A stretch of DNA of 41,863 bases, from the IMG/VR virus record IMGVR_UViG_3300031576_000134, positions 1 to 41,863 of that record. The stretch is one strand, 5' to 3'. The notes beneath the pieces are model-generated. The model had not been told where the DNA came from and made no database searches. It worked only from the letters and a program-made list of their open reading frames with translations. Of the stretch, positions 28,076 to 31,776 are shown one piece after another. This DNA is from a virus. A program made the translations under genes and the position numbers. Position 1 is the first letter of the stretch. Every line of letters starts with the position of its first letter.

Positions 28076-28124
28076 GCGGCGCAGAGTAGCACCGCTCAGG
28101 CAGGACTGGCAAGTAGCTAGTTGC
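28076..28124 (-). promoter_or_regulatory. leaderless promoter with 16-bp operator on its -35 box
   Basis: TTGCCA (28107-28112), an 18-nt spacer ending in TGC and TACTCT (28083-28088) stand 7 nt before ATG 28075. The 16-bp palindrome GCAAC-TAGCTA-CTTGC (minus strand; 28109-28124) overlaps the -35 by four bases, as expected of a repressor or activator site. Confidence 0.6.
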
Positions 28125-28130
28125 GAACTG

Positions 28131-28262
28131 TTAGAACCAGTCTCGAACAGCCCAGAACCAGCAATATCGACTCTCGACCGGAGTCACCCCTGCGACAGCC
28201 ATATCGGACAGATAACATTGGTAGAGAGCTTCGCTCCGAATTGCGAGCAGCAACTGCTTCAC
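28131..28262 (-). CDS. small hypothetical protein coupled to the helicase gene
   Basis: This 43-codon frame starts at GTG 28262 inside the last codons of the helicase gene as a GTGA overlap. The helicase end carries AGGAGG 7 nt before it, an ideal ribosome site. The product begins MKQLLLAIRSEALYQCYLSD and ends ESRYCWFWAVRDWF, rich in aromatic residues at the end. I do not recognise it. The ribosome site and overlap are the evidence that it is real; the codons themselves are too few to judge. Confidence 0.5.
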   Translation of the reverse strand: MKQLLLAIRSEALYQCYLSDMAVAGVTPVESRYCWFWAVRDWF

Positions 28263-30370
28263 GACACTTCCTCCTTGAACAAGATCGGGAATCGATTGGC
28301 CAGCTGACGATGATAGCGCGAGAGCATCATCCACGCCAAGCGGAGGTGCTTCTCTTCCTTCATCCCGGTCGCGTCGACCCAGCGAGCGCACGCCGCGTCG
28401 GACTTCCCGAAGCCCTGTCCGTCCAGGGTCAGCGCGCCGTCGCAGACCGAGAGCATGCTGGCCATCGCCATTCGGATCGCGCGCACCGTCTCCTCGGTGA
28501 GCAGCCTGGATTCGACGCGATGCTGCTTGGCCTGCTCGCGCTCGAGCCAGCCGTCGACGCGCTCGGAGGCCTGCTCCTGGCGCTCGGAGGCCTGGGCCTG
28601 CTGTTCGGCCTCGATCGCGGCCTGACGCCGTGCTTCGGCGTCAGCGTCGGACTCCTCGTGGAACAAGGACGCGGTGACCTTCGGTGCCTCGGCCTTCACC
28701 CTGGTCTCGATCGCAGCCTGGAACAGCTTGATCTTCTCGGACAGGAGGTCCTGCACGTGAAGATCGAGCGGATGATTGGAGACCATGCGCATGATCTGGA
28801 TGGACGACGCGCGCTGACCGATGCGGCGCACCCGATCCTCGGCCTGGCTGTTCGCGGCCGGAGTCCAGTCGAGGTCAACGAAAAGGACGTTCGACGCATG
28901 CGTCAGCGTGAGCCCGAACCCGCCAGCGCGAATCGTCAGCCCGACGCCCAGCAGCTGCCCAGCCTGGAATTTCTCGACGATGGCCTGGCGATCGGCCGGT
29001 GCGGTGTCGCCGGTGATTACAGCCCAGCCCTCGCGGTCGGCGAGAGCGTCGATCGGTGCACGGTGCGCCGAGAACACGAGCAGCGGCGTAGCGGAGTCCT
29101 CGAACTGCTCGACCACCTCGAACATCGCCGGAATCCGGGACTCAGCCAGATCCGCACGGATCGAGGACATCTCGGTGAAGTCCGGCAGCCCACCGAAGTC
29201 ACCGGAGGTGATGCAGTCCTCCATCCAGTCGGCGTAGATCTCGTCCATGCGGATCGAGACTTCGTCACCGATGTTGTTGACGATGATCTCCTTGTAGATC
29301 TTCGAGGGCAGGTCAGGCATGACCTCTTCCTTCGTGCGGCGCATCATCACGCGGCGCAGGCGCTCCGGCACCTCGGGGTTCGGGCTGCCGAACTCCCAAC
29401 CCCACCGACCGCGATAGCCGTTGAAGCAGCGCACGAAGCCCATCCATCCACCGAACACCTCGCGAGCCATGCCACCAGCGGAGAGCAGGCCGTAGAGTTC
29501 CTGGGGCTTGTTCATGAGCGGCGTGCCGGTGAGGAACCAGGCTTTGCCGCACGCGTCGGCGAGACGCGTGATCCGCTTGCTGCGCTCGGCCTTCGGGTTC
29601 TTGACGGCTTGCGCCTCGTCGATGATCAGCGTGCAGTCCGAGTAGTCCTTGCCTTCGAGGTCGGTGAGCATCGGCGGCATGATGTCGTAGTTCAGGATGA
29701 CGATGGTCTTCGGCTCCGGCACCGCGAGTTCGCGCTGCTTCTTGGCGAGGACCTCGACCGCGAACTCCGGTCGCCAGCGCCGGATCTCGGCCTGCCAGTT
29801 ATACTTCAGGGAGTTCGGGCAGATAACGAACACACGCGCATCGTCGGCGAGAGCCATGAGCGCCTGCACGGTCTTGCCGAGACCCATGTCGTCGGCGAGC
29901 AGCGTGCGCTTCCTCGACGCGAGGAACTCGACGCCGCTGACCTGGAACGGGAACAGCGCCGCGGACATCGCGCGACCCGTGGCCTTCACCTGTGCCTCGG
30001 GCTTCGCGTAGACCTTCAGCTCGGGAGCGACGTCGAGTGCAAGCTGACTTGCGATCTCGAGGACGCGAGCGCGATTGGCGATCTCGAGGCTCACCGTCCA
30101 GTGCTTCTTCTCGGGGTTCCAGCGCGCACCAGGCATCGCGCGCACCAGGGCAAGGTTGTTCGGCTCGTACGGCATGATCAGCGACCCGTCGGCGAGCAGC
30201 ACGCGCTTCGCCGGACCGGTCTCGGCCTGGAGGCCCAGAGCGCGAGCACACGCTGCGCTTGTGCAGACGACTTTCCACGCTCCGAGCTTGGACTTGAACG
30301 CGAAATCTTCGCCTGCAGCGACCGGAACCTTGCAGTGCTCGCACTTGCCTGCGTACTTGTTCTGGAACAT
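28259..30370 (-). CDS. SNF2-family DNA helicase with N-terminal zinc finger
   Basis: The 703-residue protein starts with a zinc finger (KCEHCKVPVAAGEDF then CTSAAC, residues 9-40), followed by an SNF2-type helicase: Walker A DDMGLGKT near residue 163, LIIDEAQAVKN (motif II, DEAQ), FLTGTPLMN (III), and C-terminal motifs GVGLTIRAGGFGLTLT and DRVRRIGQ. SNF2 enzymes move on double-stranded DNA and remodel forks or protein-DNA complexes. The last 150 residues are charged helix. I chose ATG 30370, with AAGGAAG 8 nt upstream, over the GTG at 30379. A long hairpin holding a palindrome precedes the gene. Confidence 0.8.
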   Translation of the reverse strand: MFQNKYAGKCEHCKVPVAAGEDFAFKSKLGAWKVVCTSAACARALGLQAETGPAKRVLLADGSLIMPYEPNNLALVRAMPGARWNPEKKHWTVSLEIANRARVLEIASQLALDVAPELKVYAKPEAQVKATGRAMSAALFPFQVSGVEFLASRKRTLLADDMGLGKTVQALMALADDARVFVICPNSLKYNWQAEIRRWRPEFAVEVLAKKQRELAVPEPKTIVILNYDIMPPMLTDLEGKDYSDCTLIIDEAQAVKNPKAERSKRITRLADACGKAWFLTGTPLMNKPQELYGLLSAGGMAREVFGGWMGFVRCFNGYRGRWGWEFGSPNPEVPERLRRVMMRRTKEEVMPDLPSKIYKEIIVNNIGDEVSIRMDEIYADWMEDCITSGDFGGLPDFTEMSSIRADLAESRIPAMFEVVEQFEDSATPLLVFSAHRAPIDALADREGWAVITGDTAPADRQAIVEKFQAGQLLGVGLTIRAGGFGLTLTHASNVLFVDLDWTPAANSQAEDRVRRIGQRASSIQIMRMVSNHPLDLHVQDLLSEKIKLFQAAIETRVKAEAPKVTASLFHEESDADAEARRQAAIEAEQQAQASERQEQASERVDGWLEREQAKQHRVESRLLTEETVRAIRMAMASMLSVCDGALTLDGQGFGKSDAACARWVDATGMKEEKHLRLAWMMLSRYHRQLANRFPILFKEEVS

Positions 30371-30394
30371 CCTATCCACTTCCTTCCTGGGACG

Positions 30395-30439
30395 GGAGCC
30401 GAGGTGCAGGCTGCAAGTCAGCTTGCATACCTCGGCTCC
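30395..30439. terminator. long stem-loop with operator in the loop
   Basis: GGAGCCGAGGT (30395-30405) and ACCTCGGCTCC (30429-30439) are perfect 11-bp arms. The loop contains TGCAAG-TCAG-CTTGCA (30412-30427), itself a perfect palindrome with 6-bp arms. It lies between two leftward genes, after the gene at 30462 and before the helicase. No U-run follows on the minus strand. Confidence 0.45.
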
Positions 30440-30461
30440 GTTTCGTCGTGTCGAGGTTCAT

Positions 30462-31049: not shown

Positions 31050-31050
31050 G

Positions 31051-31236
31051 TTAGTAGTCTCCGTTCGCCTTGCGGCGGTTGTCCTTGCAGATATCGTCGA
31101 TGCAGAGCACGAGAGCGGTATCCTTGCGCACGTAGGCCTGCTCCTTCTTGGTCAGCAGGTTCATGGCCTGCTCCCAGGAGGTCGGCTCGCCCTTGCGAAC
31201 CTTGGCGAGGACCCCGTCGATGCTGATCTCCTGCAT
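31051..31236 (-). CDS. small hypothetical protein, leaderless
   Basis: The 61-residue product begins MQEISIDGVLAKVRKGEP and is helical, with two cysteines (LCIDDIC). I do not recognise it. ATG 31236 was chosen because a promoter with TTGCGC, 17-nt spacer and TGG-TAAGGT ends 7 nt before it and there is no ribosome site. The next gene starts 1 base after its stop. Confidence 0.55.
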   Translation of the reverse strand: MQEISIDGVLAKVRKGEPTSWEQAMNLLTKKEQAYVRKDTALVLCIDDICKDNRRKANGDY

Positions 31237-31298
31237 GAGTGAAACCTTACCACATTCCCCTCGGAGGCGCAAGCCTGGAATTGCCTGCGCCTCCGAGG
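31237..31298 (-). promoter_or_regulatory. leaderless promoter overlapped by a 13-bp-arm hairpin and operator
   Basis: The minus strand has TTGCGC (31267-31272), 17 nt, TAAGGT (31244-31249) and 7 nt to ATG 31236. CCTCGGAGGCGCA (31259-31271) and TGCGCCTCCGAGG (31286-31298) form a perfect inverted repeat covering the -35, with GCAAGCCTGGAATTGC (31269-31284) in its centre. The hairpin also lies just downstream of the gene ending at 31306, so it may terminate that transcript. Confidence 0.6.
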
Positions 31299-31305
31299 TG
31301 GTCCC

Positions 31306-31677
31306 CTAGGCCTTCGGGAGCTTCGGTCCGACCCAACACAGCTGGTCGGCCTCCGCGCGCACCAGGCCGGTCCGGAGGAGGGTACCGCGCAGGATCTCCC
31401 AGTCCTGGAGGCTGAACCCGGCCTTCTCCATGAGGGCGGTGTAGAGGATGCCCTCGGGTGCGCTTCCGGCCTCACGGACGGTCTCGAGGACGGCCGCGGC
31501 GATCGCCAGGGCAGCCCGCAGCTGGGCCTCCTTGGTGGGCTTCTCGGGGCTCTTCGGGGCCTCCTGGGCCTCGGGTCGGGGCTTCCGGCCGCAGGCGCAG
31601 TTGATCGGCCGGACGGCGAACCGCAGGGCACAGTTCGGGTCGGCATGGGGGAGCGAGTTCATGGGGGTCTTCGGCAT
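31306..31677 (-). CDS. hypothetical protein, leaderless, divergent to 31777
   Basis: The 123-residue protein begins MPKTPMNSLPHADPNC and has a Cys/Arg-rich opening, a Glu/Lys/Pro linker (EAQEAPKSPEKPTKEAQ) and a helical C-terminal part with AIAAAVLETVREAG. It may hold a small winged helix. I do not recognise it. The -10 TAAAGT ends 6 nt before ATG 31677 with no ribosome site, so a leaderless message is likely. Confidence 0.55.
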   Translation of the reverse strand: MPKTPMNSLPHADPNCALRFAVRPINCACGRKPRPEAQEAPKSPEKPTKEAQLRAALAIAAAVLETVREAGSAPEGILYTALMEKAGFSLQDWEILRGTLLRTGLVRAEADQLCWVGPKLPKA

Positions 31678-31776
31678 GGGTCGACTTTACCACAGGCAAT
31701 CGGGGACTTGGAAGTTCCCCATCTCGAGGCAACATGGGACTTGCGCCGCGCAGGTTCCTATGGTAAGGTTCGGGAC
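31678..31776. promoter_or_regulatory. divergent leaderless promoter pair with shared operator
   Basis: Rightward: TTGCGC (31741-31746), 17 nt, TGG-TAAGGT (31764-31769), 7 nt, ATG 31777. Leftward: TGG-TAAAGT (31684-31689), 6 nt, ATG 31677, with a weak TTCCAA 18 nt upstream. The 16-bp palindrome GCAACATGGGACTTGC (31729-31744) overlaps the rightward -35. An imperfect GGGGACTT/AAGTTCCCC repeat lies in the middle. Confidence 0.65.

Follow-up and report, generated by a model that had tools for sequence, protein, structure and literature searches.

A palindromic GCAA-N8-TTGC site at the predicted leaderless early promoters of an uncultured phage

Described operator systems and the phage genome

The repressor of the actinophage phiC31 binds conserved inverted repeats across the phage genome, several of them at early promoters. 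Operators of the cI/Cro type (lambda, 434) are palindromes that lie over the -35 box or the spacer, and the 434 operator is ACAA-N6-TTGT. In the cluster A mycobacteriophages (L5, TipsytheTRex), a short immunity repressor site recurs more than 20 times over the genome, in short gaps between genes as well as at promoters (PMC9283540). It is one asymmetric sequence of 13 bp that follows the direction of transcription and is contacted by a repressor monomer (PMC9283540, PMC6550527). The SaPI Stl repressor (Orf20) is cI/Cro-like and acts on a palindromic site with TATCTC half-sites (PMC6695447).

The genome analysed here contained a 16-mer palindrome (GCAA-N8-TTGC) and a 14-mer palindrome (GCAA-N6-TTGC). 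The many copies of short sites in this one phage genome partly recall cluster A, with 16-mers at promoters and some of the 14-mers in gaps, but in place of an asymmetric 13-bp site oriented with transcription both classes were palindromes with the same half-site, at two spacings, and the 14-mers were mostly inside genes. As in phiC31, palindromic sites were spread over the genome with several at early promoters, whereas phiC31 has one site class, of another sequence and mostly intergenic. The likeness to cI/Cro-type operators consisted of a palindrome over the -35 or spacer, a 14-mer with the architecture of the 434 operator, and an encoded HTH_3 protein; the differences were six or more scattered promoters instead of one switch, and the N8 spacing at promoters. 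The mechanism proposed below would be a textbook one; what appears unusual is that a single half-site would serve at two spacings, with no overlap in where the two are placed.

The window, that is, the whole stretch of DNA analysed, was the complete IMG/VR virus record IMGVR_UViG_3300031576_000134 (41,863 bp, 61.7% GC), and its megablast against the phage collection gave no match. Genes were called with a simple codon-usage model built for this analysis, and the starts of five genes were placed by hand. The left part, on the plus strand, coded for head and tail proteins and an endolysin. These were followed by a minus-strand block of nucleotide and replication genes coding for a dUTPase, a 2-amino adenylosuccinate synthetase-type protein (21331-22491), a family A DNA polymerase (22410-24107), a dATP/dGTP pyrophosphohydrolase (26162-26869), a PDDEXK exonuclease, an SNF2 helicase, a prim-pol and an MT-A70 methyltransferase, and a terminase was encoded at the right end of the window. 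The 21331-22491 product, which we take to be PurZ-type, had GSEGKG in place of PurA's GDEGKG. The gene content of PurZ-type synthetase, family A polymerase and dATP/dGTP pyrophosphohydrolase suggests that the genome probably carries 2-aminoadenine (Z) in place of A. Every A in the GCAA operators may then be Z, and the phage would be a case of operator recognition with a modified A.

Relatives were sought by the SNF2 helicase, PolA, terminase, PurZ, HTH, capsid and prim-pol proteins, and viral contigs were scanned for GCAAGCTGACTTGC. Among the matches listed, none shared the same sites, and only single-gene or replication-module relatives were obtained.

The N8 palindrome at predicted leaderless promoters

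The exact 16-mer was observed five times in the window (15707, 28109, 31269, 31729 and 38819), against an expectation of 0.33 in dinucleotide shuffles and 0.65 from the real GCAA and TTGC word counts (Poisson p 6e-4), and p was about 0.01 once 17 spacings were allowed for. By number alone the N8 class was moderately surprising; its placement was the convincing part. A sequence-only reading had placed exact copies at 28109, 31269 and 31729, each with TTGC as the first four bases of the -35 of a promoter with a spacer of 17-18 nt, and the positions and the overlap were confirmed at all three. In addition, two of these sites (28109 and 31269) were found to serve minus-strand promoters, the starts at the three promoters looked leaderless, three more leaderless promoters had a 16-mer with one mismatch (two in a different register), and the exact copies at 15707 and 38819 were added.

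Promoters were searched for blind to the motif, by listing those called gene starts that TANNNT precedes by 5-10 nt within non-coding DNA. The search gave seven candidates. The candidate at 24071 was dropped because this start lies inside the polA ORF, and six were kept, one on the plus strand (31777) and five on the minus strand (31677, 31236, 28075, 38065 and 26141). All six had the predicted -10 exactly 6 or 7 nt before the ATG and no Shine-Dalgarno sequence, which is the arrangement of actinobacterial-type leaderless starts. TANNNT 6-7 nt before the six starts formed a sharp peak compared with about 0.17 per distance elsewhere, which supports the leaderless promoters as such. On the other side, a sigma-70 consensus scan reported none of these leaderless promoters, and their -10 matches were short.

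On the plus strand, the exact 16-mer GCAACATGGGACTTGC (31729-31744) provided with its TTGC the first four bases of the -35 of promoter A (TTGCGC-N17-TAAGGT-N7, 31741-31776), which leads to the leaderless ATG at 31777, a gene for a 358-aa protein (31777-32853) and then a DUF2786/DUF7168 gene (32893-33909). Divergent from it on the minus strand, promoter B (TAAAGT-N6-ATG 31677) had a 1-mismatch 16-mer in its -35/-10 spacer (31696-31711, GCAATCGGGGACTTGG on the plus strand). The other four promoters were also on the minus strand, and their sites are given on that strand. The exact copy GCAATTCCAGGCTTGC (31269-31284) started with its TTGC the -35 of promoter C (TTGCGC-N17-TAAGGT-N7-ATG 31236), and GCAACTAGCTACTTGC (28109-28124), also exact, did the same at promoter D (TTGCCA-N18-TACTCT-N7-ATG 28075), which precedes the exonuclease and dATP/dGTP pyrophosphohydrolase genes. 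At promoter F (TTGACG-N18-TAGGGT-N7-ATG 26141), which precedes an AAA_24 gene and leads towards PolA and PurZ, the 1-mismatch 16-mer GCAACGACTCAGTTGA (26175-26190) started the -35 with TTGA. At promoter E (TTGCCA-N18-TAGGGT-N7-ATG 38065), which lies ahead of the genes for the HTH_3 protein, the prim-pol and the methyltransferase, the 1-mismatch 16-mer CCAATCGGCCGATTGC (38084-38099) occupied the spacer.

Two exact copies lay apart from these promoters. The copy at 38819-38834 (minus strand) lay upstream of ATG 38813 at a distance of 5 nt and overlapped a weak -10-like TAGGCT; this start had no Shine-Dalgarno sequence. The copy at 15707-15722, to which no strand was assigned, was inside a 909-aa gene (13169-15898) in the tail region and not at a promoter, and is possibly a chance occurrence. 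On the minus strand TACTTGCC was found only four times (396, 28108, 38098 and 38818), with three of the four copies at the starts 28075, 38065 and 38813.

Four promoters (31777, 31236, 28075 and 26141) had the promoter-side half-site as the -35 start (TTGC, or TTGA at 26141), with spacers of 17, 17, 18 and 18 nt, an exact GCAA 8 nt farther out in each, and the 16-mer centre at about -40.5/-41.5. At 31677 and 38065, CCAA-N8-TTGC (promoter strand) began at or within the -35 and filled the spacer. The sequence-only reading had described the register as identical; this stood for its own three promoters relative to the -35, with a 1-nt shift relative to the -10, and a fixed register applied to four of the six leaderless promoters and not to 31677 and 38065, where the site is in the -35/-10 spacer.

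Within the 45 nt that precede the -10, a 16-mer with at most one mismatch was observed at 6/6 predicted leaderless promoters; random 51-nt genome segments contained one in 1.6% of cases. The promoters at 31677, 38065 and 26141, which the sequence-only reading had not used, served as an independent test (p about 4e-6). Within 70 nt upstream, a 16-mer was present at 6/6 leaderless starts and at 2/40 other starts (p 3e-6), one of the two being 38813 with its exact copy and missing Shine-Dalgarno sequence. When half-site spacings of 0-16 were scanned, spacing 8 was found at 6/7 candidates (at most one mismatch) and every other spacing at 0 or 1. As expected of a promoter operator, the 16-mer thus lay over the -35, the spacer or the -10 beyond chance. 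Because each leaderless early promoter found had the 16-mer at its recognition box or next to it, one regulator probably switches the replication genes together, independently of the 14-mers dispersed over the genome. An early regulon of an uncultured phage, with six promoters and transcript starts to the base, is thereby predicted from sequence alone.

The 16-mers are very probably the operators through which a set of early genes is controlled together, and we put repression, the likeliest mode of action, at a probability of about 0.6. A single dimeric regulator, most likely phage-encoded, would bind GCAA-N8-TTGC as its operator and jointly control the right-arm early operons (replication and nucleotide metabolism). 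With its promoter-side half-site doubling as the -35 start at four leaderless promoters and its site in the spacer at two, the bound protein would keep RNA polymerase off the promoter and so repress it, for early shut-off or for maintenance of a quiet state.

In the main alternative, the 16-mer would be a class II activator site, with a dimer near -41 contacting RNA polymerase at promoters with a weak -35 and repressing only where the site is in the spacer (31677 and 38065). The centre at about -41 shared by four promoters is the position bound by class II activators, the -35 boxes TTGCGC and TTGCCA are poor and escaped the sigma-70 scan, and the divergent pair A/B would form an activated/repressed switch. 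We regard this as unlikely, given that two of six sites are in the spacer, that the 38819 copy is near a -10, that 26141 has a better -35 (TTGACG), and that the half-site itself covers the -35 bases that sigma must read. Covered core promoter contacts were the only feature common to both registers, and occlusion is therefore favoured over activation.

The N6 sister class

The 14-mer GCAA-N6-TTGC was found 20 times against 0.44 expected and was by far the most enriched four-base palindrome in the genome. It was absent from the leaderless promoters, where the best match had 3 mismatches. G outside GCAA was found in 10/16 cases for the 16-mers and 6/40 for the 14-mers (p 0.0008), and G just inside GCAA in 5/16 and 30/40, respectively (p 0.005), in a comparison that takes in the three 1-mismatch promoter 16-mers. 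The 14-mer half-site favoured a pyrimidine (T or C) on its outer side and G on its inner side (yGCAAG), and the 16-mer half-site favoured G outside and was unbiased inside. The absence of 14-mers from leaderless promoters and the different flanks indicated two site classes. The earlier view that the N8 palindrome is tied to promoters and separate from the dispersed N6 motif was supported, as only spacing 8 scored at the promoters; its further suggestion, that spacing determines whether a site represses or acts as a stoperator, found no support in the site analysis here. Two classes differing mainly in spacing would form a natural pair, in which one half-site would be used for promoter control and for genome-wide binding.

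A proportion of the 14-mers (12/20) were wholly within called genes, and the rest were at gene ends or in gaps, where they were over-represented. This distribution recalls the stoperators that cluster A phages have between genes, although the asymmetry and orientation of those sites are missing here. At 32845-32858, 36958-36971 and 38135-38148 the 14-mer took in the TGA with which a gene ends, and the one at 2618 began 6 nt past the stop of another gene. Those at 30413-30426 and 32845-32858 were at -47/-48 of the internal operon genes 30379 and 32893, which had good Shine-Dalgarno sequences. A role as RNA hairpins was not favoured: mismatches at the fifth position (T..C and G..A) were close to the independent expectation, and no covariation was seen by eye.

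The sequence-only reading had also proposed that the same regulator reads 14-mers and 16-mers, with the spacing setting affinity or mode, and this is compatible with the operator model. The GCAA core is identical in both classes, and both are enriched in this genome and neither in four actinophage genomes or a PurZ-bearing relative. A shared reader is nevertheless doubtful, as the flanks differ significantly, two extra base pairs turn the half-sites by about 70 degrees, which is hard for a rigid dimer, and 14-mers are never at leaderless promoters. A wider scheme, which we regard as unlikely, would have N8 sites set initiation at all early leaderless promoters and some 20 N6 sites along the transcription units halt elongation or give the DNA its organisation. 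The two classes would be read by a single regulator acting in two modes or by a pair of related regulators, and the A of the genome would probably be 2-aminoadenine.

Candidate regulators and remaining alternatives

Putative DNA-binding proteins were encoded at the regulated loci, which supports the repressor model. One candidate for the regulator is the 123-aa product of 31306-31677 (minus strand), which is encoded from promoter B and would be autoregulated at the divergent pair A/B. A single-sequence model gave the order H-E-H-H-E-E for residues 49-115 (pLDDT about 78-88), a modelled winged helix. Foldseek with this model returned mostly winged-helix domains, none significant (all E > 0.01), and so points to the fold only.

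The other candidate is the HTH_3 (Xre) protein (36964-37302, minus strand), whose gene is downstream of promoter E. Among solved proteins SaPI Stl came closest to it in sequence (E 3e-4), with the alignment limited to the HTH domain (22-76), and the Stl half-site is TATCTC, compared with GCAA here. A relative phage record (G001) had a PurZ 66% and an HTH domain 61% identical, and contained no GCAA-N6-TTGC copy and no enriched palindrome. The HTH_3 protein is therefore not clearly the reader of either site. Sites of the same spacing did not co-occur with the HTH protein in this relative, as they would in a 434-type system, which weakens a 434-type reading by the HTH_3 protein, though only in part, since the recognition residues differ. 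The HTH_3 gene adjoined the prim-pol gene both in this phage and in G001, and the prim-pol (35030-36892) had a MarR-like domain match at its C-terminus. A low-confidence model of the 30462-31049 product showed a possible N-terminal winged helix, the C-terminus had a zinc-like CLCGCG...GHD motif, and G001 had both a related copy of this protein and a further, partial one.

The 16-mer might also be read by a transcription factor of the host, which the phage would exploit in timing its early genes. A lysogeny repressor need not be assumed, as the scanned genes included no integrase, and the 16-mer is not tied to any phage protein; set against the several HTH or winged-helix proteins that the phage encodes at the regulated loci, a host factor seems quite improbable. 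That TTGC is merely part of the preferred -35 of the phage and the outer GCAA coincidental, as the TTGC -35 at 38065 with no GCAA at that distance might suggest, is very hard to maintain, since GCAA was exactly 8 nt upstream of the -35 TTG in 4/5 TTG-bearing promoters (p about 1e-9 for one offset and 5e-8 for 40 offsets, with three of the four cases having suggested the test) and at two more promoters the palindrome is present away from the -35 position.

A minus-strand hairpin with a 16-bp stem (31259-31298; -39 kcal/mol for the folded stretch, z -5.7) was present just after the gene 31306-31677 and is its probable terminator. It was interleaved with the 31269 16-mer, and its 3' arm held the -35 of promoter C. 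The hairpin was rejected as the source of the palindrome, because despite the overlap its dyad was 2 bp off that of the 16-mer. A second minus-strand hairpin (30395-30439, z -5.2) also lay in a gene gap and, like the first, had no U-tract; a 14-mer was situated between its arms.
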